Origin: a virus
IMG/VR virus record: IMGVR_UViG_3300049595_001338
Location: 1-28,106 of that record
Strand: one strand, 5' to 3'
Length of the DNA: 28,106 bases
The translations under genes and the position numbers were made by a program. Of this stretch, positions 2,235 to 23,567 are shown piece after piece. The notes below the pieces were generated by a model. The model was not told the origin of the DNA and searched no databases. It saw nothing but the letters and a program-made list of their open reading frames with translations. Position 1 is the stretch's first letter, and every line of letters starts with the position of its first letter.

Positions 2235-5200
2235 ATGTCTACCCCATCAAATTTATATGCAGAAAAAATATATTCTGAGCACCCATTAGTTTTATGGGCA
2301 CTAGACGATACCCTTAATTATAAAAGTTTAATTTCTGAAGCACAGCGTGATATCTCTGATTCTTGGACTATATCAGATGCAACAGCAACATTAGAGTCAG
2401 AATCTCTTAAGCAGCCATTTTTAAATAGTGCTTTGACATTAGTTGAAGTTGATGTGCCAGTTACTGAAACTCTTGAAGCATCAATAATTAGCCCAAATAT
2501 ATTAAACTTTAATGTTCTTGAAGATCTTGAAACATTTACAATAGGTTCATATTTTTATTCAAATAGTGTTTATTTGCAAAGTGTTTCTATAGGATATGAA
2601 TATACAGATCCAAGCACTTCTCAAATAGTTCAAGAATTAAAAACTTTTACAAGTACGCTTTATCAAAAATGGGGCTTTATCTCTGAAACTTTTGCAATTC
2701 CAAATGTCTCTGCACAATTAAGAATTGTTTTTAAAATAAAAATATTTGAAGGGTCTGGACTTACAACAGAAAATCAATTTTATTTTAATGGTATTACTTT
2801 AGGTCAATGGAATGAAGAATTTAACACATATTCTTTAAATGGAATAACAGAAACTACAGTTCCATCAACAGTAAGCATTTATGGTGGTTTGGATGCAGTG
2901 GAGGCCCAAGCATACGGTATTGCAGAAGATTCTGGGTACTACATTACCGAAGGCGGATTAAAAAGCAAAAATGCAGGCATACCTTTGGTTTATGGCGCAA
3001 GCGGTGCAACAAGGTTAGAGCCTTATACAGATGCATCTTTAATAATTCCAGGAAAAGGTTTTTTAAATAAAAAAGGACAGTATAACGATTACACAATTGA
3101 ATTTTGGGCAAGGATAGCAGCAAATACACTAACACCATTTAAAATTTTTGGACCAATTGCATCTAACGATGGCTTATATGTTGAAGATGGATTTTTAACA
3201 TTAGTTGTTGGAAATCAGTTTGCTTCTCACTTTATTGGTGAATGGTTTAGGCCAATTTTAATTCATATTCGTTTAATTAGGAACTCAGCATCTTTATTAA
3301 TAAATGGAGAAGAGGTTTTATCACTGTCTTTTGATACATCTACCCTTTCTTTACCAGAAGAACTTGATGCTAACGGGGATAGCCAGGATTGGCTTGGCTT
3401 TTATTCAGATGCCAGCGTATATCCTTTTGAAATTGACTGTGTTGCAATTTATTCATATCAAGTTCCAGTTACAGTAGCAAAACGCAGATGGGTATATGGA
3501 CAAGGAGTTATATCTCCAGAAGGAATTAACTCAGCATATGGAGGAATAACTGCATTCGTAGACTATCCATTTGCTAACTATACTGCAAACTACAATTACC
3601 CAGACTTTGCAGGATGGAACCAAGGAAGTTTTGATAATTTAACAACAACCACAACAAGTTTAAGAACTCCAGAATATTTGTTACCTGAAATATTTTTAGA
3701 TGATAAAACATTGGAAGATTTATATGAAGACAATCAAGCCATACAAGATAACGAATCTGGTCCATTTATTGAAAATAGGTTTTTGTCATTTAGGCCAAAC
3801 AACACTTGGAATTCTAAAAATACCTACATTAATTTTGATAAGTTTAATGTTTTAGCAAATCAGGTTGATGCTTTTTATGGTGTTTTTAGTTCCCATGATT
3901 TGGTTTCTGAAGAAATATTGTTTAAAATATATAATCCTGTCAATGGCAACTATTTTTCTATTATTAAAGATGGCGATGAAATTAAATATTCTTTGACCAA
4001 TAGTGAAGGTACTGAATTATTATTTACCTCTGATCCGATAACAGCAAACACTACTTTTGCAGTTGGGTTTAATTTAAGAAGTTTATCTGATAATTTTGGT
4101 GGAGGTGTTAATTCATTTTTAGGAAATCAAAATTCTTTAAAAATGTATGTTGGTGGTGACGATTCTGGAGAATATGCTTTTACTGGAAGAATTTATTCTG
4201 TTGGTGTTTGTAGCACAACTAACGCTTCTAAGATATCAAATAATTTTGATGAAAATGGAATTGTTATTTTAAGTCATGGTTCATCATTAATTTCTCACAC
4301 AGCAAGTTATACACTTCTGCCTTCTGAAGCATATGAAAGATATTTTTTAGATATAGGTGTTGCTGGATATTGGCAAGATTATTTACCACTTTCTTATTTT
4401 GGGCAATTTGTAAAAAATAAAGATAGCGAAGAATACTATGATTTAGATTTTTTACAGTTTAACTTGGCATACCCTACTACTACAACTTTAGCCGAAGAAT
4501 CTGGTAATGGTGGATACTATTATGATACAAGTGGAGCACAAATAAAAAGTTATATTACTTTTCAATATGTTTCTGAGGGAGCAAATCTTGTAACACCTTT
4601 TGCAAATGAGCAAACGTTAAATCAATATAAAGTTGTTGATATAAATGATTATGAAGATTGGGAGACCACAAGGTTTGAAGTTTTAAATAATACATTAATA
4701 TATCCTATTAAAACAAAAGACTTTAATAGTCTTGCAATTGTTTATAGTCTTGAATTTAATAGCCGTGGTATTTTGACCAAACCCATATTGTTGAATAAGT
4801 TGCAGTTGGCTTCTCAAGCATTTAACAACAATTCTTCAAATCCTGTTGGAACAAGATTTGGTGTAGACTTGTTCCCATATAAGAAAAATGGAATATATTT
4901 TGATTATAAATCAAAAAATCCGTTTAGCATATACAAAGAAAGCACACCATATCTATATTTAACCAAAACTTCTGGGCTAGAAGTGCGTGGAGAACTTAAT
5001 GTTTTAGAAAATCGTGGGCTTTCTCTTCCAATTAATAAAGAACTTGCAACATCTTATAAGGTAAGTGCTATGCAACTCTGGCTAAGATATGATCAGGACA
5101 CCTTTCCAGAAACAGCAACAGAAATATTTGAAATTAATCACAAAGATGGTACATTAAAGTTTTATATTCAGGCAAATAGTTCTAGCATGAATAGGGCAAA

Positions 5201-5699
5201 AATATTCGTTTTGAATGAAAATGGCGTTGAATATAATGGAGTTGCTTTTTATTTAAATGGCAATCTTGTAAGAGAGCCAGTCTTGTCGCTTAAGGAGTGG
5301 TCATCTATTGGTGTTTCATTTTTAACATCCCTGGTATATAATTCATATTTAGGAAGTATAAATCTTACAGGCCCAGCACTATTTAATAATATTGCATACT
5401 ATCAAGCAAATAGTTTGCAAGAGGTTGAAAGCAGAACCTTCAGGCCTTGGTATAAGGTTTTAACGGATGGAATTACAACCTTTGATTGGCAATTTTGGAA
5501 TAATAACTTTACTTGGGACGGTATGTTGGTCATAGGCTCATCTGAGTTTTATGGAATTAGTCCATTAGACATTTATAAAACATACATCGGAACGAATAAA
5601 ATTATAGTTGATGACGGAGAAGGGCTAATTTATCAGCCTGAAAAGTTAAAAATATACTCCGAAGTAGAATGGTTAAGCACTGTCGCCACACCAGTATAA
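2235..5699 (+). CDS. Large LamG/concanavalin-like structural protein (fibre or minor tail/head protein)
   Basis: A 1154-residue protein beginning MSTPSNLYAE and followed by HPLVLWALDD, an opening I associate with actinophage surface proteins. At least one jelly-roll lectin-like domain is fairly clear at about residues 280-410 (YTIEFWAR at 286-293, LLINGEE near 357). Two weaker copies of the same pattern lie near 525-660 and 930-1055 (MQLWLRYDQ, then FYLNGNLV). The composition is rich in N, S, Y and T with many predicted strands, and there is no signal peptide. The likely role is a virion surface protein binding host glycans, but the exact site (head fibre or tail fibre) cannot be told. It has its own promoter and AGGAG site and lies upstream of the portal, an unusual place for a tail fibre. 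Its C-terminus shares the KIIVDDG motif, with an identical 20-base DNA stretch, with the tail-tip gene at 24203. Confidence 0.65.
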   Translation: MSTPSNLYAEKIYSEHPLVLWALDDTLNYKSLISEAQRDISDSWTISDATATLESESLKQPFLNSALTLVEVDVPVTETLEASIISPNILNFNVLEDLETFTIGSYFYSNSVYLQSVSIGYEYTDPSTSQIVQELKTFTSTLYQKWGFISETFAIPNVSAQLRIVFKIKIFEGSGLTTENQFYFNGITLGQWNEEFNTYSLNGITETTVPSTVSIYGGLDAVEAQAYGIAEDSGYYITEGGLKSKNAGIPLVYGASGATRLEPYTDASLIIPGKGFLNKKGQYNDYTIEFWARIAANTLTPFKIFGPIASNDGLYVEDGFLTLVVGNQFASHFIGEWFRPILIHIRLIRNSASLLINGEEVLSLSFDTSTLSLPEELDANGDSQDWLGFYSDASVYPFEIDCVAIYSYQVPVTVAKRRWVYGQGVISPEGINSAYGGITAFVDYPFANYTANYNYPDFAGWNQGSFDNLTTTTTSLRTPEYLLPEIFLDDKTLEDLYEDNQAIQDNESGPFIENRFLSFRPNNTWNSKNTYINFDKFNVLANQVDAFYGVFSSHDLVSEEILFKIYNPVNGNYFSIIKDGDEIKYSLTNSEGTELLFTSDPITANTTFAVGFNLRSLSDNFGGGVNSFLGNQNSLKMYVGGDDSGEYAFTGRIYSVGVCSTTNASKISNNFDENGIVILSHGSSLISHTASYTLLPSEAYERYFLDIGVAGYWQDYLPLSYFGQFVKNKDSEEYYDLDFLQFNLAYPTTTTLAEESGNGGYYYDTSGAQIKSYITFQYVSEGANLVTPFANEQTLNQYKVVDINDYEDWETTRFEVLNNTLIYPIKTKDFNSLAIVYSLEFNSRGILTKPILLNKLQLASQAFNNNSSNPVGTRFGVDLFPYKKNGIYFDYKSKNPFSIYKESTPYLYLTKTSGLEVRGELNVLENRGLSLPINKELATSYKVSAMQLWLRYDQDTFPETATEIFEINHKDGTLKFYIQANSSSMNRAKIFVLNENGVEYNGVAFYLNGNLVREPVLSLKEWSSIGVSFLTSLVYNSYLGSINLTGPALFNNIAYYQANSLQEVESRTFRPWYKVLTDGITTFDWQFWNNNFTWDGMLVIGSSEFYGISPLDIYKTYIGTNKIIVDDGEGLIYQPEKLKIYSEVEWLSTVATPV

Positions 5700-7732: not shown

Positions 7733-7741
7733 TGCTATAAT
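7733..7741 (+). promoter_or_regulatory. Extended -10 promoter TGCTATAAT for protease/scaffold
   Basis: TGCTATAAT ends 9 bases before ATG 7751, giving a predicted leader of 0-3 bases. The intervening TATAACGTT contains no Shine-Dalgarno, so the protease is predicted to be translated from a leaderless or nearly leaderless mRNA. Confidence 0.65.
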
Positions 7742-7750
7742 TATAACGTT

Positions 7751-9085
7751 ATGTTAATAAACAAGGCTCATTGGGAAACTAAAGGTGACAATGTTCGCCT
7801 TTCAATGCCCATTGGAAAAGTGGATGTTGAACGCCGTATGGTGTCTGGCTTTGCTACGCTTGATAATGTTGATCGTCAAGGCGACATAGTTACAACAGAA
7901 TCTAGTGTAGAGGCTTTTAAAAACTTCCGTGGCAATCTTCGTGAAATGCATCAGCCCAGCGCAGTAGGAAAGATTGTTTCTTTTAAAGAAGATAAATATT
8001 TTGATCCAAATGACAAAAAGTTTTATAGTGGAGTTTACGTATCTGCGTATGTTTCTAAAGGTGCACAAGATGCTTGGGAAAAAGTTTTAGATGGAACATA
8101 CACTGGATTTTCAATTGGTGGCAACATAAAGACTTGGGATGATGCTTATGATGAAAAAATTGATAAAACAATTCGTGTAATCAAAACATATGAACTACAT
8201 GAGTTATCTCTTGTAGATAATCCAGCAAACCAATTTGCAAATATTTTATCTATTGAAAAGGTAAATGGACAAAACGTAGTAGATGGATACTTATCAAAAA
8301 CAGAAATTGAAAATGTATTTTGGGATTCAGAAAACGGTATTGTTATGGTTTCAGATTCTGACTCAGTAACAAGTCCAGTAACTGGAAACAAAATGCAAAA
8401 TATTGGTTTTATAGAAAAGAATGATAAAGATAATGCAGAAATGATAAAATTCTTAGTTGATAGTGCTAAAGGCATTAATACAATTAAGATTACTAAGGAG
8501 GTAAATCAAATGACAGAATCAACAGAAGCAGTTGTAGAAACTGCAGTTGAAAATGCAGAGATTGCTCCAGAGGCACAGCCAGCAGAAGTAGCAGCAGACG
8601 TAACAACAGAGGTTGTTGCAGAAACAGCAGAAACTCCTGCAGTCGCTGAAGAAGCACCAGTAGTTGAAGAACTTGCTGTTGCTAAATCGGATGATGGTGG
8701 TGCAGAATCTTCTGCTGCAAAAGCAGCAGTTGAAGTAGAGAATGTAGTGGAAAAATCTATTGCAGATGTTAAAGAAGAAGTTGCCAAGGCAGTTTCAGAA
8801 ATTAATACTTCTCTTACTAATGCCTTTGGCGATCTTGCTGCAACTATCAAATCTCTTAATGAGAAGGTAACAGCAGTAACAAAATCTCTTGATGCAGTAA
8901 CATCAGATGTTAACGGTATCAAGAATAACTTTAACGAGTTTGGCAAGCGAGTAGATCTTGTAGAGCAAGATACCGCTTTCCGCAAGTCTGGCGATCTAGG
9001 CGAGATCGTACAGGAATCACCACAAGTGGTTCAAAAATCCCTATGGGGCGGTCGTTTCCTCACATCAACCGACCTATTTAACTAA
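7751..9085 (+). CDS. Prohead protease-scaffold fusion protein
   Basis: The 444-residue product joins an N-terminal HK97-type (S78/U35) prohead protease, about residues 10-175, to a C-terminal scaffolding region. The protease part shows the expected order: VSGFATLDNVDRQGDIV, the likely catalytic H67 in REMHQ, the likely nucleophile S121 in TYTGFSIGG, and the closing ELHELSLVDNPAN (150-160) with acidic candidates E151 and D156. Residues 254-330 are a low-complexity A/E/V-rich stretch. Residues about 328-408 look like a coiled coil (VEKSIADVKEEVAKAVSEIN and following), as in capsid scaffolds. The long form would tether the protease inside the prohead, mature it and then be degraded. The gene is leaderless by prediction, and an internal start at codon 254 would give scaffold alone. 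The capsid gene follows after 27 bases. Confidence 0.88.
   Translation: MLINKAHWETKGDNVRLSMPIGKVDVERRMVSGFATLDNVDRQGDIVTTESSVEAFKNFRGNLREMHQPSAVGKIVSFKEDKYFDPNDKKFYSGVYVSAYVSKGAQDAWEKVLDGTYTGFSIGGNIKTWDDAYDEKIDKTIRVIKTYELHELSLVDNPANQFANILSIEKVNGQNVVDGYLSKTEIENVFWDSENGIVMVSDSDSVTSPVTGNKMQNIGFIEKNDKDNAEMIKFLVDSAKGINTIKITKEVNQMTESTEAVVETAVENAEIAPEAQPAEVAADVTTEVVAETAETPAVAEEAPVVEELAVAKSDDGGAESSAAKAAVEVENVVEKSIADVKEEVAKAVSEINTSLTNAFGDLAATIKSLNEKVTAVTKSLDAVTSDVNGIKNNFNEFGKRVDLVEQDTAFRKSGDLGEIVQESPQVVQKSLWGGRFLTSTDLFN
8495..8502 (+). promoter_or_regulatory. Strong internal ribosome binding site inside the protease-scaffold gene
   Basis: AAGGAGGT stands 7 bases before an in-frame ATG at 8510. The spacing and core are the same as the capsid gene's site (AGGAGGTG, 7 bases before ATG 9113). 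The beginning of the full-length gene, by contrast, has no such site. Confidence 0.7.
8510..9085 (+). CDS. Nested in-frame scaffolding protein
   Basis: Starting at Met254 of the protease-scaffold reading frame, this in-frame nested gene would give a 191-residue protein beginning MTESTEAVVE. It contains only the A/E/V-rich linker, the predicted coiled coil and the C-terminal VVQKSLWGGRFLTSTDLF segment, which could be the capsid-binding end. A near-perfect Shine-Dalgarno (8495-8502) exactly at the protease/scaffold boundary is hard to explain otherwise. The arrangement is known from lambda, where Nu3 scaffold is read from inside gene C. Making scaffold in large excess over protease would fit HK97-type assembly. 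Independent production is inferred from the start signal; it has not been observed. Confidence 0.65.
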   Translation: MTESTEAVVETAVENAEIAPEAQPAEVAADVTTEVVAETAETPAVAEEAPVVEELAVAKSDDGGAESSAAKAAVEVENVVEKSIADVKEEVAKAVSEINTSLTNAFGDLAATIKSLNEKVTAVTKSLDAVTSDVNGIKNNFNEFGKRVDLVEQDTAFRKSGDLGEIVQESPQVVQKSLWGGRFLTSTDLFN

Positions 9086-13492: not shown

Positions 13493-14125
13493 ATGCCATA
13501 TAGCCGTGGTACGTCAAACAACATTATCGTTGGTGCAGCAGCACTTTTCGTTGCTGATACAACTCTAACTCCAGGTACACTGGAGGCTTTTGACGCAAGT
13601 GAGTCTTTTAAAGATACACTTTCAGATGAAGCAGATTACACTAACATAGGTTACACCATGAACGGTCTAGAATTGCAGTTCCAACCAGACTTCGGTGAAG
13701 TCCAGGTAGACCAAATTCTTGACGTTGCAAAACTATATAAGCAAGGTATGCAGGTTAATCTTGCTACCGCTTTTGCTGAAGCAACACTAGAAAACTTGCT
13801 TCTTGCATTAGCATTTTCTGATGCACAACTTACAGGAAACAAGGCAGCATCTACAGGTCAGACACTTAATCTATCTGCAGGTGAACTTGGAGAATGTCCA
13901 GTAGAACGAGGAATCGTTGCTGTTGGACCAGGAACTGGAGATTGCGACAACTCTGACTCTGTTGAGCGTGTTTACACAGCATATCGTGCTCTATCAATTG
14001 AGAACGTAACTGTATCCGCAAAGCGTGACGAAGCGTCAATGTTTGAAGTTTCATTCCGTCTTCTTCCAGAAGATGCGTCAGGATCATACGGTAAGATCGT
14101 AGATCGTACATTTGGTCAATCATAA
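13493..14125 (+). CDS. Major tail (tube) protein
   Basis: This 210-residue protein should polymerise into the non-contractile tail tube. Its traits fit the siphophage tube family: N-terminal MPYSRGTSNNIIVGAAALFVAD, an early SFKDTLSDEADYTNIGYTMNGLELQFQPDFGEVQVDQ strand set, an alanine-rich helix (LATAFAEATLENLLLALAFS), and a closing KRDEASMFEVSFRLLPE strand. It has GAGGTG 7-8 bases upstream, two candidate promoters and a terminator immediately downstream. Codon choice is richer in C-ending codons than its neighbours, like the capsid gene. It is followed by the chaperone genes, as in most siphophages. Confidence 0.88.
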   Translation: MPYSRGTSNNIIVGAAALFVADTTLTPGTLEAFDASESFKDTLSDEADYTNIGYTMNGLELQFQPDFGEVQVDQILDVAKLYKQGMQVNLATAFAEATLENLLLALAFSDAQLTGNKAASTGQTLNLSAGELGECPVERGIVAVGPGTGDCDNSDSVERVYTAYRALSIENVTVSAKRDEASMFEVSFRLLPEDASGSYGKIVDRTFGQS

Positions 14126-14142: not shown

Positions 14143-14181
14143 GCAAAAGCCCATCTCTTATGAGGTGGGTTTTTTCTTTTG
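14143..14181 (+). terminator. Intrinsic terminator after the major tail protein gene
   Basis: CCCATCT (14150-14156) pairs with AGGTGGG (14163-14169), with one T-G wobble and a 6-base loop. It is followed by TTTTTT, C and TTTT. The flanking GCAAAAG (14143-14149) and CTTTTGC (14176-14182) are also complementary and could extend or alternate the stem. Confidence 0.85.
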
Positions 14182-14185
14182 CCTA

Positions 14186-14194
14186 TGATAGAAT
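14186..14194 (+). promoter_or_regulatory. Extended -10 promoter TGATAGAAT, leaderless long chaperone
   Basis: TGATAGAAT ends 9 bases before ATG 14204, with no Shine-Dalgarno in AGATAAATC. The start codon is supported independently, because the protein aligns from its first residues with the paralog at 15681 (MATT versus MATS). A leaderless or nearly leaderless mRNA is predicted. Confidence 0.6.
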
Positions 14195-14203
14195 AGATAA
14201 ATC

Positions 14204-14899
14204 ATGGCAACAACAGTTTATCAAAATAAAGTAATAAATCTTATTGATGGAACAGAACTAGAGATTATTCCATTAAAAATAAAATATCTTCGTGAGTTTA
14301 TGGAGGCTTTTGAAAATGTAAAAAAGGCCGAGGACGATGACCAAGCAATAGATTGCTTAATGGAATGTGTTAGGATTGCTATGAAGCAATATTATCCAGG
14401 AATAGCGTTAAAAAAAGATGACATAGAAGATAGTTTTGATATGCCCACAATATATACAATTTTAGATGTTTCAGCAGGAATAAAAATAAACAGGGGATCA
14501 GAGGAAACTGTTAAAACTCAGGCAACAGAGAGTGGATCAACCTGGTCTGATTTAGACTTAGCAAAAATTGAGGCTGAAGCATTTTTATTGGGTATTTGGA
14601 AAGATTATAAGGAGTTAGAAGAGTCTTTATCTATGCCAGAGTTAATGGCTACACTTTCTAGTCGTAGAGAACTTGATTACGAAGAAAAAAAATTTCTTGC
14701 TGCAATTCAAGGGGTAGATTTAGACAAACAGTCTGGATCGTCACGAGGCCAAAAGGAGTGGGAAGATATGAAGGCTAGAGTATTTAGCAAAGGTGCAACA
14801 AATGATAGTAAAGACATCTTGGCACTCCAAGGACAAAATGCTAAAAAAGCAGGGTTTGGTATTGGCATGGGATTAGAGTATGAAGATTTGACAAAATAA
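14204..14899 (+). CDS. Long tail assembly chaperone (G+T fusion in one frame)
   Basis: The 231-residue protein has two parts. Residues 1-97 match the short chaperone at 15681 throughout: DGT at 15-17, PLKI at 23-26, LR at 29-30, IAMKQY at 58-63, P81-T82, Y84 and the SAGIK region at 90-94. Residues about 110-231 (SDLDLAKIEAEAFLLGIWKDYKELEESLSMPE, then WEDMKARVFSKG, ending GFGIGMGLEYEDL) correspond in position to the T part of G-T chaperones that bind the tape measure protein. Normally G-T is made by a programmed frameshift; here G and T parts are continuous in one frame, and no slippery heptamer is needed. It is predicted leaderless, hence perhaps modestly translated. T-domain identity is inferred from architecture. 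Confidence 0.75.
   Translation: MATTVYQNKVINLIDGTELEIIPLKIKYLREFMEAFENVKKAEDDDQAIDCLMECVRIAMKQYYPGIALKKDDIEDSFDMPTIYTILDVSAGIKINRGSEETVKTQATESGSTWSDLDLAKIEAEAFLLGIWKDYKELEESLSMPELMATLSSRRELDYEEKKFLAAIQGVDLDKQSGSSRGQKEWEDMKARVFSKGATNDSKDILALQGQNAKKAGFGIGMGLEYEDLTK
14375..14392 (+). repeat. 18-base direct repeat with hairpin, copy 1
   Basis: ATTGCTATGAAGCAATAT here is identical to 15855-15872 in the paralogous chaperone gene. Within it ATTGCT and AGCAAT are complementary around a 4-base ATGA loop. It encodes IAMKQY in both proteins. Confidence 0.7.
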
Positions 14900-14912
14900 A
14901 ATAATAGGTATG

Positions 14913-14921
14913 TGATAAACT
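14913..14921 (+). promoter_or_regulatory. Extended -10 promoter TGATAAACT, leaderless methyltransferase
   Basis: TGATAAACT ends 6 bases before ATG 14928, so transcription would be expected to begin at the A of the start codon. There is no Shine-Dalgarno. The hexamer TAAACT is the least consensus-like of the set. Confidence 0.45.
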
Positions 14922-14927
14922 ATAAGA

Positions 14928-15575
14928 ATGGAAAAAACTAAAAAAATGAAAAAAGGCTTTTGGGATTCAGTTTGGGCTGGAAACCATTCATATGTTAGTA
15001 AAAATAGTACAAAAGAATTGCCATGGGAAACGTATACCTATGATAAAAATTTGGAAGAATTTGTAAATCAAAATAATATTGAAGAATATGATGTTCTTGA
15101 ACTTGGATGTGGGTCTGGAAATGATACATTATTCTTATCAAAAAAAGCAAAAAGCGTAACTGCCATAGATGTATCTGAGGTTGCAATAAATATTGCTAAG
15201 GAAAATAATGTCGGTAGAAATAACGTAGAATTTATTGTGGGAGATTTACACTTTGATTTGCCAGACAAAAAATATGATCTTATATATGATAGGGGTTGTT
15301 TTCATAATAATTTAGATATAATAAATACTTATTTTAAAATTTTGTACTCAAGGCTAAAGCCTGGTGGAAAGGCAATTTTAATTTCTGGTAATCTAAATAA
15401 TAAAAATAACAGATATACCACACCAGATGCCATAAACATCTCAGCAGTAGAATTACCATCCTCTGGCTTATTTCATATAAAATATGTAAAAGAAATAGTG
15501 CACGAACTAAACAAGAATTATGAAAACTGCCTAGGCTGGTTTTTTGTTTTAGAAAAAATAGACCCCTTTATTTAA
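14928..15575 (+). CDS. Class I SAM-dependent methyltransferase (TehB/thiopurine methyltransferase-like)
   Basis: A 215-residue Rossmann-fold methyltransferase. Motif I is VLELGCGSGND (56-66), the acidic end of strand 2 is D81 in TAIDVSE, GDLHFD (105-110) follows, and DLIYDRGCFHNN (117-128) and LKPGGKAILIS are the post-I and later motifs. The N-terminal FWDSVWAGN (11-19) and LPWE (31-34) resemble TPMT/TehB-type small-molecule methyltransferases more than DNA methylases, and no DNA-methylase catalytic motif (DPPY, PC) was seen. Substrate is unknown. It is inserted between the two chaperone paralogs, has its own -10 box, and is even richer in A/T and in K/N codons than its neighbours. These are marks of an acquired accessory gene (moron). 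It might modify a metabolite, a toxic compound or a host molecule. Confidence 0.85.
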   Translation: MEKTKKMKKGFWDSVWAGNHSYVSKNSTKELPWETYTYDKNLEEFVNQNNIEEYDVLELGCGSGNDTLFLSKKAKSVTAIDVSEVAINIAKENNVGRNNVEFIVGDLHFDLPDKKYDLIYDRGCFHNNLDIINTYFKILYSRLKPGGKAILISGNLNNKNNRYTTPDAINISAVELPSSGLFHIKYVKEIVHELNKNYENCLGWFFVLEKIDPFI

Positions 15576-15631
15576 TTACCTCCCATATTTAGTTTTTTAG
15601 GCATTTAAGGCATTAAAAATACTTGTAAAAA

Positions 15632-15653
15632 TAAGGCCCTTACATGATATAAT
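15632..15653 (+). promoter_or_regulatory. Extended -10 promoter TGATATAAT before the short chaperone, with inverted repeat
   Basis: TGATATAAT at 15645-15653 is the best match to consensus in the window, with a possible weak TTGTAA (15623-15628) at 19 bases. TAAGG-C-CCTTA (15632-15642), an inverted repeat, sits directly upstream and could be an operator, though it is short. The leader to ATG 15681 is about 20 bases. The 105-base gap holds no other gene. Confidence 0.6.
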
Positions 15654-15666
15654 TAACATAGCCTAT

Positions 15667-15672
15667 AGGAGG
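15667..15672 (+). promoter_or_regulatory. Consensus Shine-Dalgarno of the short chaperone
   Basis: AGGAGG stands 8 bases before ATG 15681. The long paralog at 14204 has no such site, a contrast that would favour production of the short form. Confidence 0.8.
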
Positions 15673-15680
15673 AAAAATCA

Positions 15681-16013
15681 ATGGCAACAAGCACGTATGA
15701 AGAGGTAGAACTAGTTCTTTTGGACGGTACAAAGATTAAGGCAAGACCGCTTAAAATCTCATTACTTCGTCCATTTATGAAGAAGTTTTCAGAACTAGCA
15801 GAGGTGGCAGAAGATAATGACAAGTCAACGACTGTCCTTATTGATTGTGTTCAAATTGCTATGAAGCAATATAAGCCAGAAATTGCAGATGATGCTAAAA
15901 AGTTAGAAGAGAATATTGATCTTCCAACTGTTTATAAGATTATTGAATCTGCTTCAGGGGTAAAACTTCAAGATGCAAATGCACTCTTGAACACAGTTCT
16001 TGCAAACAATTAA
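15681..16013 (+). CDS. Short tail assembly chaperone (G-type)
   Basis: A 110-residue protein homologous along its whole length to residues 1-97 of the long chaperone at 14204. Shared are MAT, DGT (15-17), PLKI (23-26), LLR (28-30), FM, DC, IAMKQY (59-64), LPT, Y and SGVK. It is the size of phage G-type chaperones, which coat the tape measure protein during tail assembly in excess over the G-T form. No T-like sequence follows: the stop is at 16011-16013 and the tape measure starts at 16029. A -1 shift near the end would add only about eight residues before a TGA at 16032, and a +1 shift stops at once. It has a good extended -10 promoter and AGGAGG site. Confidence 0.82.
   Translation: MATSTYEEVELVLLDGTKIKARPLKISLLRPFMKKFSELAEVAEDNDKSTTVLIDCVQIAMKQYKPEIADDAKKLEENIDLPTVYKIIESASGVKLQDANALLNTVLANN
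15855..15872 (+). repeat. 18-base direct repeat with hairpin, copy 2
   Basis: This is the second copy of ATTGCTATGAAGCAATAT, in frame with the copy at 14375-14392. It is the longest identical DNA stretch I noticed between the two chaperone genes. Confidence 0.7.
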
Positions 16014-16028
16014 ACAATGAGGTGACAA

Positions 16029-19000
16029 ATGAGTGATGTTAATGCCAAAATTGGCGTACAAATTGATACGTCGCAGGCGTTAGCGGAACTTAAAAGTTTA
16101 CAGCGACAGTTAGCACTATTCCATACTTCGGTATCAAAGGGTAGTGCTTCTGCTGCTGCTCAACAAAGAAACATGCAGCAGAATCTGCTGAACTCAATAA
16201 ATGCTACTGGTAAATTCTCAGCACAGATGGGTGTCGTTAGAACATCCACAGAATCTTTCACAAATGCTCTTGAAAAAAACAAACTTTCAATGCGGGAATA
16301 TTTCCGTTATGCTGGCGGATCTACAAAAACATTTGGAAGATTATTTAAATCAGAATTTGACACAATTGGCAAAGTAGCACAAGATCGTGTAAAAAGATTA
16401 CAAACACAATATATTAAGTTAGGCCGTGATGCAAGCGGTGCAATGAAGGCTATCTCTGTTACTCCAACTAGCCTAAATATGAAAGACTACGGAACACAGG
16501 TTGCATTAGCAGCACAAAAGCAAGCATTATTCAATCAGTTAGTAAAACAAGGATCTACAAATCTTTTAAACTTTGGTAAAAATACACAGTGGGCAGGTCG
16601 CCAACTTATGGTTGGTTTTACAATTCCTCTTGCCTATCTTGGAACTGTTGCTGGAAAAACTTTTATGGATCTTGAAGCACAAGCCATCAGGTTTAAGCGT
16701 GTATATGGAGATATATTTACAACAACAGAACAAACAAATGAGGCTCTTGAAAATGTAAGACAACTTGCAGAATCATTTACTAAGTATGGAATTGCAGTTG
16801 TAGATACGATGAAGATGGCAGCAGATGCTGCAGCAATGGGTAAGACTGGTGCAGAACTTACAGCGCAGGTAGCCCAAGCAACAAGACTTGCAGTTCTTGG
16901 TGGTGTAGAGCAAGGACAGGCTCTAGAAACAACTATATCTATTACAAACGCATTTGGTACAGCAGCAGAAGATTTGGCAAAAAAGATTAACTTCCTTAAC
17001 GCAGTTGAAAACCAAACAGTCGTATCTATTGAAGATTTAACTATTGCAATTCCTAAAGCAGGTCCAGTTGTAAAACAACTTGGTGGAGATGTTGAAGATT
17101 TAGCATTCTTTTTAACAGCAATGAAAGAAGGCGGAATCAATGCATCAGAAGGTGCTAACGCACTTAAGTCTGGTTTAGCATCACTCATTAATCCAACTAA
17201 AAAAGCATCTGAAATGCTTGCAGATATGGGAATTAATATCAAAGCAATTGTTGAAGGTAATCAGGGTGATATTAAGAGTACAGTTATTGACTTTTCAAGA
17301 GCGCTGGATACTCTAGACCCACTTAATCGTGCTCGTGCAATTGAGCAGTTATTTGGTAAGTTTCAGTTCTCACGTTTATCAACATTGTTTCAAAACGTAA
17401 CAAAAGACGGAACACAGGCTGCAAAAGTTCTTGGATTAACAACAAATTCTGTTGAACAACTTGCAATTATGTCTGAAAGAGAACTTGGAGTTTTAGAGGA
17501 TGCAGTTGGAACTAAGTTTAAAAAAGCAATTGAGGATCTTAGATTAACACTTGAACCAGTTGGCAAAACATTTTTAGAGGCAGTAACACCAATTGCACAA
17601 TCAGTTGCAGGTTTGCTAGATAAGTTTAATAATCTTGGAGATGGCACAAAGAAGTTTATTGTAGTTGCAACAACGCTGGTTGGAATTATTGGTCCAGTAT
17701 TATTAATGACTTTTGGTTTATTAATGAACGCAGTAGCAAACGGAATAAAACTATTTGCAATAATGCGTACAGGATTTTTAAAACTTGGTGGAAATAGCAA
17801 AATTCTTGCAGAACAAACAAACTATTTATCGGTAGAGCAACTAGAGGCTGCAACAGTAGCAGCATCATTAAACCAAGCACATAATAGACTCACACAACAA
17901 TTTAATATTGAGGCATCTGCTGTAAGAGCACTTCGTCAAGCATATATTGATGCAACAGTCGCTGCAGCCAACTTTGCAAGAACAAATCCAGGAATGATGA
18001 TGCCTGGCAGAGGCGGGGCACCAAAGAAATTTGCAAGAGGAACTGCATCTGTACCAGGAAGAGGTAACAAAGATAATGTTCCTGCAGTGCTTATGCCTGG
18101 AGAAGCGGTAATTCCAACAGACATTGCACAAAATCCACAAGTCCAGCCAATTATTGAAGCATTGCTTGGCGGTAAACTTCAGGCATTTGGAACTGGAACT
18201 GGAGATGCACAACCATTTGCTAACTCTCCAAAGTTCCAACCAAAGATGGATCTTAGTGGGCCTTCAGCACAAGTTCTTAATACTAACCCAAGCCAAATAA
18301 ATAGTCTTCTTTTGGGCAAATCAGCATTTACAGAAACCAACGAAGCCTTTGCTGCAAGAAACGCAGCACTTCTCGCAAGAATGCAAGGGGCAAAATCTCA
18401 AACAAAATCAAACCTAGTATTTGGACATGCTGTAGATCATAAACAGATTTCTGGAACAAAGGTTTCAGAGCAGTTTAGAAAACTTGGTTTTGGAAGAGAA
18501 AACCTATACACTGCTGTTGGGTTTGATATTCCTAAAGAAATGAATGGGCAACTAAATAGAAAAAATTCAACAGTTACTGCTGGAGAATATAGACGAGCAA
18601 TTCTTGATGATAACTCTTTAAGAACAATGACAATAAGTCTTTCTAAGCAGGGAATTCCAGATACAGATGCGCTTAGAGTTGCAAAAGAAATTAGAACTAA
18701 TTTATTAAAATCTTTAAATTCTTTACCAGATAATGCTTTAATTAATGACAAGATGATTTATTCTAGAATGGGTAATGAAAGGTCTGGAATCATGGGTGCT
18801 CTTGCAAAATCTGCAGACCCAATTGTATCTAGATCAGCAAGAACCTTGCTTGGTGCAGCATCTACAAGTGCTGTTGGTGGATCAAGCATTAAAACAGATA
18901 AATTAAAATCAATTGATGATGTTATTAAGGCTGTACAAAAAACTAATTCAAATCCAATATTAGTTAAAAAATTAAATGAATTGAAAGCAATTGATCCAAA

Positions 19001-22000
19001 ACTATTAATTCCAACCAGTTTAAATGATAAAGGTGAAATTGTTGCTTACCGCAGACCTGAAATAACAGGTGGAAAAATTACAAAGAATAACGTAATTAAT
19101 GGACTAATTGATGGTAAGTTTAAATCACAAAGAGAGTTCCTTGGTGGAGGAAGACAAGTTCTTAAAATTACTAAATCAATGAATGATCGTTTTGATAGAT
19201 TAATTGGTAAACAACCTCAAAAAGAAACTGTTGCTGTTAGAGCAAGAGGAGAGTACAAGGTTGACGCAAAGGGTAATTTAACCCCACTAACTGGACAAAA
19301 CACCGAAAGAAAACCAGCATCCATTCAAACAACAAGTAGAAATGTTTCAGACAATAGAACAACAACACTTAATCCAAACGAAACTGTAGTTCAAAGAATC
19401 CGAAGACTTCGTGGGTTTGCAAATGCACCACAAGTTGATCCAAAAACTGGAAGCACAACAATGGGAGAAGTATCCCAATCAGCAAGACTATCTCGTGCAC
19501 AGTTGTTGGCAGCGGTAGAAAAAATAAGTTTAAAAGAAGCCAAAAGACGTATAGCAGCAGAAGGCAAACTAACAAATGCAATGAATGAGTCTACAGAGGC
19601 TCAAAAGACAACAAAGCAAAAGTTATCAGAGTTTAGTTCAAAGGCAAGTCTTGGTATAGGTGCAGTTTCTGGACTTACAATTGCAGCATCTTTTGCTGGC
19701 GGTAAATTAGGAGAAATGGCTCAAACAATAATGCCATTTGTTTTTGGATTACAAGGTATAGTTGCATTACTTCCAATGCTTGCAAATCCATGGGTTGCAG
19801 CAGTAGCAGCAATTGCTTTGGTTGGTGGAACATTATATAAGATGTCAAAAGACATGGAAAAAGCAAGGCAAGAAGGAATTAATCTTTCTAATGCAATGAG
19901 TATGACTTCAAAGAAAATTGTTGATCTATCTGTAATATCTGGAACTGTTAGCGCAAGTGAAGAGGCTGCTAGAAGAAGAAAGAATATCGTTTCTGGAACA
20001 GTTGAGGGACAAAGGCAATTTGGACAAAATGTATTGGGTAGTGAATTTGGAAAACAAATACTTGCAGATATAGAAATTCAATCTAAAAATGGTCAATCTA
20101 TTAAGCAAATATCTCAAAATTTAGCCAATAACTTAGCAGTAGCAGTTGCTCAAGGTGCAGTAACAACAAGCCAAGCAAGAAGTATTGCTGCAGCCCTTGG
20201 AGAAGAACTTGGAAGTTATGAAATACCAGCGCTTGTTAGCGGCAAACTTGTATCACTTCTTGGTCCTAATGGAGAAAACCTCACTACGGATCCTTTGCAG
20301 GTAACATTAGAAATACAAAGATCCTCAATGGACAAGCAGGCGCAAGCATTTCAAACTGCAATAAAAGGAGTGCTAGAAAATAAAAATACATTTGCTGGTG
20401 CAAAATTAGACATGGCTCCAACAAGTATTTTTGATAGATTTAAAAATTTATTTGACCCTACAACACTTTTTGATTATTTTGGAGAAAGAAAACAATCTGC
20501 AAAACTTACATCAGCAGCAGTTCAATTAGGCTTACAAGAAGTAGCACAAAATCAAGGACTTGTAGATTCATTAAACAGACAATACGACATAAAATTAAAA
20601 TCTGCAAAAACTGAACAAGAAATAAATACAATTCAAGGACAACGAAAAGATGCTCTTAATCAGTTGAATGCCAATAATGCAAATGCTTTAAACTTATTAA
20701 TTAAACAAAAAGATCAGTTGGGCGTAGATGGGTTTACTAAAGGTATTAAGGCTGCAGCAGATGCAATGTATAAAGAAGGCCCTATGGCAGTCTTTAAAGA
20801 TCAGGCAATAGAAGCATTAAATAAATTAAAAGATTCAAAATTTAAAACAGAATTGCAGGTAGGTCTTGCATCTGGTCAGGTTAGTCCAACAGTAATTACA
20901 AAAATTCTTTCAACTGCAGCAGGAAATAAAGGATTTGAAACAGCATTTAAAATTTTGGTTGACAAGCAAGGTCTTGCAGATGCCTCACTAATATCAGAAT
21001 TATTGCCATCAGGAGGCGCTGACGATACAACTAGAACTCTTATGATGTCATATATTAATAATAATGAAGAAGACTTTAAAACAGATATGGAAGCATTGGC
21101 TTTCTTAAATCAAATAAATCCTACATATGGAATTACTCTTGACCTTAAGGCCAATGGAATACAACAAATAGCAACTGCAACAAATGCTTTAAAACAAGTT
21201 GAAGGGTTAGATCCTCAATTAACTAAAGAAGTTGTTGCAAAACTTGCTGAAGAAAAGCCTGGAGAATGGAAGGCATTTTATGATCAGTGGAGCATTTTAT
21301 CTGAAGGAAAAGATTTTGTAAATAAAAATATAAAAGTGGCTTTTGACGTTGTTTCTAATGATCCAAACTTTAAAGGGTTTGGTTCTTCTGCTGGCAAATC
21401 TGTTGCAGATATTATTGCAAAAGGTGGCATATTGCCAGGCCCTGTTCCAACAGGCCCAGATCCAGTTGACAACAAAAATAAAAATAGAGATACATTCCTT
21501 GATGATTTATTAATAAAGTTAAAATTATTTAGAAAAGAATCCGTAAATGCTATGGGTGGCTGGAACGAGTTATTAAAGCAACTTGGCAAAGGTAAAACAA
21601 TAGATAACTTTGATGGTGTTGTTAACAAATTATCAAGGTTAAAAGTTAACGAAAGTGTTTTACAATTTGCAGAAGGACTAGATGCAGAAAATGCTGCAAA
21701 ATTCTTTAATAAAATTACGGATAAGGCTAAAAATGGAAAATTAGTTTTAAATCAATACGGTAAAGCACTTAATCAATTATTCCCTACAATTCAGGCTGGA
21801 ACTTATTTAAGAGCACAAGAAAAAATAAAAAATGAAAACAATATACAAATTAAAGCATTAGATACTCTTAAGAAAAAAGGTGTTGATGCAGCCACCGCTT
21901 TAAAGATGCTTGAAGACCCAGCAACAGCAGCAGCAATTGCAACTGGAAAAATAACTCCTGAAGCATTTACTAAAATGGCTGAGGAAACAAAAAAAGCAAC

Positions 22001-23567
22001 TGCTGAGGCTAGAAAATTTGAAGCAGCACTTAAGGCTGTTCAATTTGAGGCAGATGAATTAGCAGAGGGTGCAGCAGAACAGTTAAGTGAAAGATTTGAT
22101 TTTGGTTTTCTTGAAATTGAAAGAAAAGCAAGAGCAGCATTTAAATCAATAAATAAAATGACTCCAGAAGAAATGGAGTTAAGCGTTGCTCTAGATGAAA
22201 GATCAATTGATAAAATACAAAATACGATTGGTGATATTAATTCAAAGATTAAATCTTATAATCGTACTCTTGATTTGATTGGTAGACAAGAAACTGCAAT
22301 CACCGAAACATATGATCAAAAGATTGATTCTTTAAATAAACAAAGAGATGCCTTAGAATCAATAAAGTCAATTAATTCATTTTTGATTTCACAACAACAG
22401 AAACAATTGGGTATTGCCAATGCATTAACACAAGGCGATATTTCTGCAGCAGCAGCAGCAGCACAAGAAATGAGAGCAGAGGCTGCACAAGAATCTTTAA
22501 ACAGAATGGGTACTGGTTTAGAAACTGCAGCAAATAATTTAGAAGTACAAAAACAAAGAGAATTATCTTCAATTACAGCAGTTGTTAATGGTCAAAAATT
22601 AACTAGAAAACAAATTGAAACAGAAATTACAACACTAAGTGATCAAATTTATAATATTGAAATTTTACAATTAGAGCCTTTACAAAAACAAGCAGATGTA
22701 AAGCGACAAATTTTATCAGACCTTGCATTTCAAATTGACCGAGAACAAAAATCTTTACAGATTAATGGAATGACAAGACAAGAGTGGAACTTTATTCAAC
22801 AATATGTAGAAGCATCTAATAAAGAGTCAAATAGTCTTAAAATTAATATAGACGGAATTGCAACTTCTTCTACTACGGCAGCAGGTGCCTGGGCAAGCAT
22901 TCTTGAATCAATGAAGGCTGCTTCATCATTCAGTGTTCCAGGAGCAGGTGCAGCAGGCAGTGGAACTCCTTTTGGTCAGGCAGGATCAGCCACAGCCACA
23001 GCAACAGGAACAGCAACTAAATCAACTGGATCAACTGTTACAGTAAAGTCTGGCAATACATTAAGTGGAATTGCAAAAGCAGCAGGAGTTAGCCTTTCAG
23101 ATGTAATTAAGGCTAATCCACAAATTTCAAATCCGAATTTAATTAGACCAGGACAAGTAATCAAGATACCAGGAAAAATGTATGGCGGTATGGTTAAGCC
23201 AATGAGTATGGGTGGAATGGTTCCTAAATACCTTGCTAATGGTGGACGTATAGGTTCGGATAGTGTACCAACAATGCTAACCCCTGGAGAGTTCGTAATG
23301 AACAAGAGGGCAAGTGCAGAATTTGGCCCAATGCTATCAATGTTAAATGAGTCAAAATATCCATCAATGATAGGTAGTGGATTTGGCACACAAACTCCAA
23401 TTAATAATGTTTCAACATCTGTAAGTGACAACTCAACGGCAGTGTATAATTATAATTTGGGCTTTAGCATTAACGGAAACAATGTAAATGCAAATGATAT
23501 TGCTAGAGTAGTAATGAGAGAAATTAAAAATGTTGATTCACAAAGAGTTAGGGGGCAAAGAGTCTAA
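16029..23567 (+). CDS. Tape measure protein (TP901 type) with LysM domain
   Basis: This 2512-residue protein sets tail length and is ejected first. At about 0.15 nm per residue a tail of some 350-400 nm is implied (inference). Residues about 200-500 are the TP901-type core (AAAMGKTGAELTAQVAQATR, ALKSGLASLINPTKKASEML). Hydrophobic segments lie at about 543-576 and 1208-1270. A glycine-rich DNVPAVLMPGEAVI motif (682-695) recurs as DSVPTMLTPGEFVM (2411-2424). Between these are an unidentified region around 795-1110 starting FGHAVDHK (798-805), and long helical/coiled-coil stretches, strongest near 2060-2290. A LysM-like peptidoglycan-binding unit occupies about 2337-2381 (VKSGNTLSGIAKAAGVSLSD, then NPNLIRPGQVIKIPG). 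I see no cysteine anywhere. GAGGTG (16019-16024) precedes the ATG, and the stop overlaps the next start (TAATG). Confidence 0.93.
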   Translation: MSDVNAKIGVQIDTSQALAELKSLQRQLALFHTSVSKGSASAAAQQRNMQQNLLNSINATGKFSAQMGVVRTSTESFTNALEKNKLSMREYFRYAGGSTKTFGRLFKSEFDTIGKVAQDRVKRLQTQYIKLGRDASGAMKAISVTPTSLNMKDYGTQVALAAQKQALFNQLVKQGSTNLLNFGKNTQWAGRQLMVGFTIPLAYLGTVAGKTFMDLEAQAIRFKRVYGDIFTTTEQTNEALENVRQLAESFTKYGIAVVDTMKMAADAAAMGKTGAELTAQVAQATRLAVLGGVEQGQALETTISITNAFGTAAEDLAKKINFLNAVENQTVVSIEDLTIAIPKAGPVVKQLGGDVEDLAFFLTAMKEGGINASEGANALKSGLASLINPTKKASEMLADMGINIKAIVEGNQGDIKSTVIDFSRALDTLDPLNRARAIEQLFGKFQFSRLSTLFQNVTKDGTQAAKVLGLTTNSVEQLAIMSERELGVLEDAVGTKFKKAIEDLRLTLEPVGKTFLEAVTPIAQSVAGLLDKFNNLGDGTKKFIVVATTLVGIIGPVLLMTFGLLMNAVANGIKLFAIMRTGFLKLGGNSKILAEQTNYLSVEQLEAATVAASLNQAHNRLTQQFNIEASAVRALRQAYIDATVAAANFARTNPGMMMPGRGGAPKKFARGTASVPGRGNKDNVPAVLMPGEAVIPTDIAQNPQVQPIIEALLGGKLQAFGTGTGDAQPFANSPKFQPKMDLSGPSAQVLNTNPSQINSLLLGKSAFTETNEAFAARNAALLARMQGAKSQTKSNLVFGHAVDHKQISGTKVSEQFRKLGFGRENLYTAVGFDIPKEMNGQLNRKNSTVTAGEYRRAILDDNSLRTMTISLSKQGIPDTDALRVAKEIRTNLLKSLNSLPDNALINDKMIYSRMGNERSGIMGALAKSADPIVSRSARTLLGAASTSAVGGSSIKTDKLKSIDDVIKAVQKTNSNPILVKKLNELKAIDPKLLIPTSLNDKGEIVAYRRPEITGGKITKNNVINGLIDGKFKSQREFLGGGRQVLKITKSMNDRFDRLIGKQPQKETVAVRARGEYKVDAKGNLTPLTGQNTERKPASIQTTSRNVSDNRTTTLNPNETVVQRIRRLRGFANAPQVDPKTGSTTMGEVSQSARLSRAQLLAAVEKISLKEAKRRIAAEGKLTNAMNESTEAQKTTKQKLSEFSSKASLGIGAVSGLTIAASFAGGKLGEMAQTIMPFVFGLQGIVALLPMLANPWVAAVAAIALVGGTLYKMSKDMEKARQEGINLSNAMSMTSKKIVDLSVISGTVSASEEAARRRKNIVSGTVEGQRQFGQNVLGSEFGKQILADIEIQSKNGQSIKQISQNLANNLAVAVAQGAVTTSQARSIAAALGEELGSYEIPALVSGKLVSLLGPNGENLTTDPLQVTLEIQRSSMDKQAQAFQTAIKGVLENKNTFAGAKLDMAPTSIFDRFKNLFDPTTLFDYFGERKQSAKLTSAAVQLGLQEVAQNQGLVDSLNRQYDIKLKSAKTEQEINTIQGQRKDALNQLNANNANALNLLIKQKDQLGVDGFTKGIKAAADAMYKEGPMAVFKDQAIEALNKLKDSKFKTELQVGLASGQVSPTVITKILSTAAGNKGFETAFKILVDKQGLADASLISELLPSGGADDTTRTLMMSYINNNEEDFKTDMEALAFLNQINPTYGITLDLKANGIQQIATATNALKQVEGLDPQLTKEVVAKLAEEKPGEWKAFYDQWSILSEGKDFVNKNIKVAFDVVSNDPNFKGFGSSAGKSVADIIAKGGILPGPVPTGPDPVDNKNKNRDTFLDDLLIKLKLFRKESVNAMGGWNELLKQLGKGKTIDNFDGVVNKLSRLKVNESVLQFAEGLDAENAAKFFNKITDKAKNGKLVLNQYGKALNQLFPTIQAGTYLRAQEKIKNENNIQIKALDTLKKKGVDAATALKMLEDPATAAAIATGKITPEAFTKMAEETKKATAEARKFEAALKAVQFEADELAEGAAEQLSERFDFGFLEIERKARAAFKSINKMTPEEMELSVALDERSIDKIQNTIGDINSKIKSYNRTLDLIGRQETAITETYDQKIDSLNKQRDALESIKSINSFLISQQQKQLGIANALTQGDISAAAAAAQEMRAEAAQESLNRMGTGLETAANNLEVQKQRELSSITAVVNGQKLTRKQIETEITTLSDQIYNIEILQLEPLQKQADVKRQILSDLAFQIDREQKSLQINGMTRQEWNFIQQYVEASNKESNSLKINIDGIATSSTTAAGAWASILESMKAASSFSVPGAGAAGSGTPFGQAGSATATATGTATKSTGSTVTVKSGNTLSGIAKAAGVSLSDVIKANPQISNPNLIRPGQVIKIPGKMYGGMVKPMSMGGMVPKYLANGGRIGSDSVPTMLTPGEFVMNKRASAEFGPMLSMLNESKYPSMIGSGFGTQTPINNVSTSVSDNSTAVYNYNLGFSINGNNVNANDIARVVMREIKNVDSQRVRGQRV
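22446..22463 (+). repeat. Six tandem GCA codons in the tape measure gene
   Basis: Six consecutive GCA triplets encode a run of alanine in the C-terminal coiled-coil region of the tape measure protein. The tract is short and in frame, and could change length by whole codons through replication slippage. Confidence 0.6.
23037..23171 (+). other. LysM-like domain coding segment within the tape measure gene
   Basis: The segment encodes residues about 2337-2381 of the tape measure protein. It has the LysM layout: VKSGNTLSGIAK strand-helix, a second helix with SDVIKANP, then LIRPGQVIKIP. LysM binds N-acetylglucosamine polymers, so this part may contact peptidoglycan during DNA entry. Confidence 0.8.

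Follow-up and report, generated by a model that had tools for sequence, protein, structure and literature searches.

A two-gene tail assembly chaperone locus, probably derived by duplication from a frameshifting ancestor, in uncultured relatives of the Stanwilliamsviridae

Genes and signals of the chaperone locus

We analyzed the tail region of a metagenomic IMG/VR virus record of 28,106 bases (the window, meaning the whole stretch of DNA at that length). The features of the locus are as follows, in window coordinates.

13493-14125, + strand: major tail tube protein gene (Ig-domain family; phrog_2175, E 4.6e-34), before the chaperone locus
14145-14174, + strand: intrinsic terminator between the tail tube gene and GT, a 13-pair stem followed by a T run
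14186-14194, + strand: extended -10 box TGATAGAAT with its end 9 nt upstream of the GT start codon, a predicted promoter that would give GT a leaderless mRNA
14204-14899, + strand: long tail assembly chaperone GT, 231 aa in one frame (G-like residues 1-96, a linker, T-like residues ~109-231)
14913-14921, + strand: extended -10-like motif TGATAAACT, 6 nt before the methyltransferase ATG
14928-15575, + strand: SAM-dependent methyltransferase, 215 aa, inserted between GT and G (PF13649, Methyltransf_25, E 4.7e-17)
15645-15653, + strand: extended -10 box TGATATAAT, predicted promoter of G, 27 nt before the G start codon
15667-15672, + strand: Shine-Dalgarno sequence AGGAGG of G, upstream of the short gene
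15681-16013, + strand: short tail assembly chaperone G, 110 aa, without a T frame after it
16029-23567, + strand: tape measure protein, 2512 aa (homologous gene annotated as tape measure in Streptomyces phages; profile match in relatives)

As originally predicted, a 231-residue protein combines G-like and T-like parts in one continuous frame (ORF 14204-14899), and a 110-residue gene encodes the G-like part only (ORF 15681-16013). The predicted gene pair stood, but the methyltransferase between the two genes had gone unmentioned. The two proteins had been said to align over about 97 residues from the first codon; BLASTP gave 41 of 96 positions identical (43%, E 9e-27; residues 1-95 against 1-96). 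The claims made about the end of the short gene also held: no T-like frame follows it, the tape measure gene beginning at 16029, and frameshifts there add few residues, a -1 shift at codon 96 running 7 past codon 110 and a +1 shift reaching a stop before codon 110.

The chaperone genes lie between the major tail protein and the tape measure, in the window as in the patterns of its relatives and in annotated relatives. The tail tube protein matched phrog_885 “major tail protein” only weakly (E 0.006), and the syntenic gene in Streptomyces phages is annotated as “major tail protein”. Phrog_10504 was matched by the N-terminal parts of both chaperones (E 4.9e-22 and 2.5e-22), phrog_10474 by residues 131-222 of the long protein (E 3.4e-14); both families are without an assigned function in PHROGs. 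At its cut-off, Pfam returned no family for GT, for the short G, or for nine G proteins of the wider set, and a PDB sequence search gave chance-level matches for the two proteins (best E 0.25 and 0.32). Judged from the sequence, the locus has coding capacity for two products with a common N-terminal domain, the longer of which also carries a C-terminal (T) domain.

The fold models had a pLDDT of 68-70 (mean 70 for GT). Against a viral structure library, the GT model first matched two unnamed proteins (E 8.4e-14 and 1.5e-7), followed by named tail assembly chaperones (best E 1.1e-4) and, further down, by N15 GT (E 0.033) and an Enterococcus chaperone frameshift protein (E 0.043). Among PDB entries, the HK97 chaperone 2ob9 was the first row for GT, as a weak match (Z 4.6, 86 aligned, rmsd 4.5), and the fourth row for the short G model, with a low Z of 4.1. 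Foldseek gave the short G model 0 matches in the PDB at E 0.001.

Elsewhere in the window, a 1154-aa ORF (2235-5699) lies between the ribonucleotide reductase gene (169-2199) and the portal region; PHROG, Pfam and phage tblastn searches gave no match for it at E 0.001 to 0.01.

Frameshifting relatives and the distribution of the two locus types

A tblastn search of 50,697 phage records with the long protein matched 129, comprising 127 Streptomyces and two Rhodococcus phages. Circinus, Targaryen, Patelgo, TunaTartare, Coruscant, Yaboi and Trina are annotated with a tail tube, a chaperone, a second ORF or frameshift-joined product, and a tape measure, the joined product being annotated in Patelgo, TunaTartare and Yaboi. 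In seven Streptomyces loci, purpose-built profiles placed G and T in different frames, with T in -1. The short protein matched 127 Streptomyces phage records at one place each, so no second G copy was seen there.

The C-terminal part of the long protein, predicted to be T-like, finds its homologue in the frameshifting relatives, where T is the ORF in the -1 frame after G. An alignment of T from a set of nine spans the domain, with 35-70% identity to Coruscant, and the T parts of two frameshift loci of the sister lineage (L266 and L273) are 57% and 68% identical to that of the window. The frameshifting locus of Stanwilliamsviridae (Circinus, Targaryen, Coruscant, Patelgo and Yaboi) resembles the window in G and T homology and in gene order from tail tube to tape measure, but there G and T share one locus, T being read in the -1 frame, and many members have a slippery heptamer. 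We assign the window locus to the tail assembly chaperone locus of a long-tailed phage related to Stanwilliamsviridae.

Genome-contig scans with GT and with the GT alignment found no relative, so the host was read solely from WhiB genes and from the isolated relatives, whose hosts are actinobacteria. Of 14 large related contigs, which included the frameshift-type L323, 11 carried a WhiB gene, and among 14 control genomes the family was matched only in Corynebacterium. The host is probably an actinobacterium.

We then typed related loci by profile. The survey drew on two scans with the window proteins, two with mixed alignments, fetched phage records and two own-genome hits; it held 328 loci (two being the window), which together with the window made 329 entries, i.e. 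326 related loci and three window copies. Each viral scan contributed the best 80 loci per query, three of the four scans filled their list or matched more loci than were retained, and two queries were the window proteins, so proportions are not population frequencies; some contigs entered twice, and many duplicated-type entries are near copies. Among the matches listed, 196 of the 329 entries (the window included three times) had a fused GT and a separate G (duplicated type), 113 had G and T in the -1 frame (frameshift type), and 20 were cut or broken. Eight of these 20 had a fused GT without an intact second G: seven ended in or before the second G, and in L043 it was present but frame-broken. 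Ten reached the contig end with only G or only a partial T; the last two were L144 (T frame broken, second G present) and L314 (frameshift type, G broken). Among the matches listed, a second G accompanied every fused GT whose contig extends far enough (frame-broken in L043 only), and no second G of any size was found in the 113 frameshift-type entries. The methyltransferase lay between GT and G in 10 of the 329 entries among the matches listed, namely the window and five other contigs; this confinement indicates that it is probably a late insertion and that the plain GT-G pair is probably the older state.

The window being a single 28-kb metagenomic virus record, the arrangement could in principle be an artefact, either one broken contig or two unrelated small proteins. 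The same order in 196 of 329 entries among the matches listed, far beyond chance, and the selection on both genes leave this next to no probability; the recurrence of the gene order across entries refutes it. Both GT and the short G are under purifying selection, with a median dN/dS of 0.10 for GT and 0.12 for G (pairs not independent). By part, dN/dS was 0.186 for the N half of GT, 0.124 for the short G and 0.082 for the T half, in different and non-independent pair sets. The weaker constraint on the GT N half than on the short G or the T half agrees with most of the work falling to G and with GT being needed chiefly for its T part.

A tree was built from the tail tube and the N-terminal tape measure, leaving the chaperones out. 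Of 309 typed entries, 51 lacked a full match to the tail tube or to the tape measure and stayed outside the tree; the 258 eligible entries were reduced by shared 4-letter words to 71 representatives (37 frameshift, 34 duplicated). All duplicated representatives fell on one side of one branch (SH-aLRT 99, 71 rows), and the other seven members of the larger starred group that holds them are all frameshifting. With three long rows removed (68 rows, quick method), the branch had an SH-aLRT of 96, and five frameshift rows adjoined it at 100. Rooting on the Streptomyces or Rhodococcus phages makes frameshifting ancestral and lost once. With the duplicated type forming a single clade nested within frameshifting lineages, and with the C part homologous to T, the original proposal of a duplication is supported.

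The G-domain tree (98 columns only) united the short G, the GT N part and the sister-lineage frameshift G in one starred clade (SH-aLRT 97). Within it the GT N part formed one clade (90), and the short G was not cleanly apart from the sister frameshift G. The tree places the short G closer to the sister frameshift G than to the GT N part, as would be expected had the short G come from a different phage within this wider group and settled beside an already fused GT, with no tandem duplication. We consider such an acquisition improbable: all three kinds of G share the starred clade, the fast evolution of the GT N part may draw its branch away from the others, and among the matches listed no fused GT with enough downstream sequence was without a second G.

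Start signals and slippery sites

A TANNNT motif about 10 nt before the start is the mark of leaderless genes, which are common in actinobacteria according to the available text of two reports (PMC3160421, PMC3898074). In all 126 distinct duplicated-type loci among the matches listed, such a motif ended 5-10 nt upstream of the GT ATG; 124 of them also had TG at the extended position, and none had a Shine-Dalgarno core in the last 20 nt. The box letters vary at this fixed position (TAGAAT, TATACT, TACAAT, TATAAT, TAAAAT). The short G has the opposite arrangement: among the same listed matches, its extended -10 lay at 20-33 nt in 126/126 distinct loci and at 5-10 nt in none, and 125/126 had a Shine-Dalgarno core in the last 20 nt (four of the 126 short-G starts are off ATG at the profile position and are counted). 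Only one of the 34 short-G representatives, L316, was without a Shine-Dalgarno sequence. The frameshift G resembles the short G, with the leadered arrangement in 32 of 37 representatives and a Shine-Dalgarno core in 34 of 37. With a -10 box some 6-10 nt upstream and no Shine-Dalgarno sequence, GT is predicted to be translated from a leaderless mRNA, whose start is here predicted from the -10 position alone. Another in-frame start codon lay upstream of the GT ATG in 14 of the 34 representatives. The start codon of GT was ATG in 34/34 duplicated representatives, and that of G was apparently TTG after a strong Shine-Dalgarno sequence in 22 of the 37 frameshift representatives (e.g. L178 and L243).

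The distance from the tail tube gene to the first G was 66-88 nt in the 34 duplicated representatives versus 94-136 nt (one 259) in the 37 frameshift ones; the shorter distance fits the loss of a leader. A terminator-like structure preceded GT in 33/34 and the frameshift G in 31/37 representatives. Taken together with the distances, this suggests that the terminator and promoter stayed and the leader went. Such a structure occurred in only 2 of 112 distinct GT-G gaps, so GT transcripts should run into G.

GT could alternatively be translated, without a Shine-Dalgarno sequence, from a transcript reading through from the tail tube gene, the -10-like motif then being no promoter. Both the motif and the genome are A+T-rich, the window as a whole shows no enrichment of the motif (6 on the + strand and 0 on the - strand, against a mean of 4.1 in base shuffles), and a generic sigma-70 scan showed no promoter excess (11 found, 11.3 expected) and listed none of the extended -10 boxes. 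The case for a promoter rests on the fixed position across relatives. An extended -10 ending 5-10 nt before the start was expected in 0.6 of 34 by shuffling; 5 of 167 control ORFs had one, as against 0 of 57 tape measure genes and 0 of 71 tail tube genes. A terminator-like structure also precedes GT in 33 of 34 representatives. We regard readthrough as unlikely, if somewhat less so than the acquisition of G from another phage, and prefer a leaderless GT mRNA.

Two other window genes have similar upstream motifs. The methyltransferase has its own TGATAAACT box 6 nt before the ATG, and may on this ground also be leaderless. At the head maturation protease gene (7751; region 7733-7751), TGCTATAAT ends 9 nt before the ATG with no evident Shine-Dalgarno sequence, making the gene another possible leaderless candidate.

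A canonical X XXY YYZ heptamer was present in frame in the G/T overlap of 84 of 94 distinct frameshift-type loci among the matches listed: CCCAAAC in 55, CCCAAAT in 13, AAATTTG in eight, GGGAAAC in six, GGGAAAA in one, and GGGAAAC plus AAACCCA in one. The ten without it were L314, with its broken G, and nine Streptomyces phages or close contigs (L162, L165, L167, L169-L174) that carry CCCGGAA at the overlap. In the duplicated representatives, a heptamer lay near the GT junction in 2/34 and in the last 25 codons of the short G in 7/34. The short G of the window has TGCAAAT where frameshift relatives have CCCAAAT, by an eye comparison. An A AAA AA[A/G] run occurs at GT codons 162-164 in 13 of 34 duplicated representatives (window 14686-14692), over a conserved Lys-Lys of the T domain; it is probably a by-product of these codons, and a -1 product there would not be G-like. 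The window lies outside the lambda-type frameshift class, in which T is in another frame and a slippery site stands at the end of G: here the first copy has G and T in a single frame, and no T follows the second. From the loss of slippery sites together with the coupled gene content we infer that the need for recoding was removed, as had been proposed.

Duplication could have replaced frameshifting and the short G nevertheless have taken on a new role, with GT alone doing both jobs through an undetected slip or proteolysis. The paralogs are only 43% identical, and the GT N part evolves faster than the short G (dN/dS 0.186 versus 0.124) and has long branches in the G-domain tree. We give this little credence, about as little as the acquisition of G from elsewhere: the short G retains the ancestral kind of promoter, leader and Shine-Dalgarno sequence and groups near the sister-lineage frameshift G, heptamers near the GT junction are rare, and the second G is never missing on contigs that are long enough (among the matches listed).

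Proposed origin of the two genes and comparison with known systems

We propose that in the ancestor one locus would have produced the short G, along with a minor long GT through -1 ribosomal slippage. A unit of promoter, leader and G would then have been duplicated once in this lineage. The upstream copy would have become the in-frame fused GT gene and lost its leader and Shine-Dalgarno sequence; the downstream copy would have kept promoter, leader and Shine-Dalgarno sequence and lost T and the slippery site. Both products would now come from two genes. GT would be made from a leaderless mRNA begun just past the tail tube terminator; G would have a strong promoter and ribosome site of its own and would also be read from the GT promoter. 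The unequal G:GT ratio, once fixed by slippage, is today probably determined at initiation. If lambda is a guide, G would coat the tape measure and the T part of GT would recruit the tail tube protein; these assembly roles, like the transcript starts, the protein ratio and the order of the duplication steps, are what we infer. The account as a whole, with a frameshifting ancestor, one duplication, a fused leaderless GT, a leadered G and a ratio most likely set by initiation, seems to us likely.

In TP901-1, permanent fusion of gpG and gpT gave normal-looking but non-infectious particles, as described in the accessible part of PMC4493119. This would explain why a fusion needs a second G, and presumably the GT fusion could be kept only because the second G existed. 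Low output from leaderless mRNA is, in the portion of Cortes et al. available to us, no general rule in actinobacteria.

According to the accessible text of PMC5009743, the G/GT frameshift is widely conserved in long-tailed phages except T4, and lambda makes GT by -1 slippage at a G:GT molar ratio of 30:1, T binding the tail tube protein. The window shares with lambda a short protein and a long form with a common N part, but in lambda, as that source describes it, the long form is the product of -1 slippage. Some T4-like phages have separate short and long tail assembly chaperone genes (Vladimirov, Gautam, Davidson 2022, as reported in part in PMC10885494 and PMC12846349). Compared by that description only, they resemble the window in having a short gene and a longer fused gene and no frameshift; the window differs in that its own family of loci includes documented frameshifting relatives and in that promoter and leader signals contrast between its two genes. 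Microbacterium Cluster EA phages likewise have no evident chaperone frameshift, and the available description (PMC7302621) gives two separately expressed ORFs without stating a duplication of G. With these T4-like and Microbacterium precedents, the principle is already known. Among the titles and abstract starts listed, with subscription papers mostly beyond reach, there was no paper on the chaperones of this lineage. As far as these searches go, what is new is a separate, independent instance among relatives of Stanwilliamsviridae, one whose frameshifting kin can be compared directly, together with the switch of start signals.

Our more specific proposal is that stoichiometric control moved, in one duplication event, from frameshifting to a leaderless GT versus a leadered G with a Shine-Dalgarno sequence, and that this was kept across a large uncultured clade; we hold it with somewhat better than even confidence. 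The loss of the frameshift can be placed on a tree: frameshifting relatives adjoin the branch, and all descendants that could be tested have a second G. Comparison across this branch can ask whether selection keeps the ratio itself rather than the frameshift, and how a fixed translational ratio is rebuilt from promoters and start sites. The arrangement also provides an annotation rule for many unannotated phage contigs.
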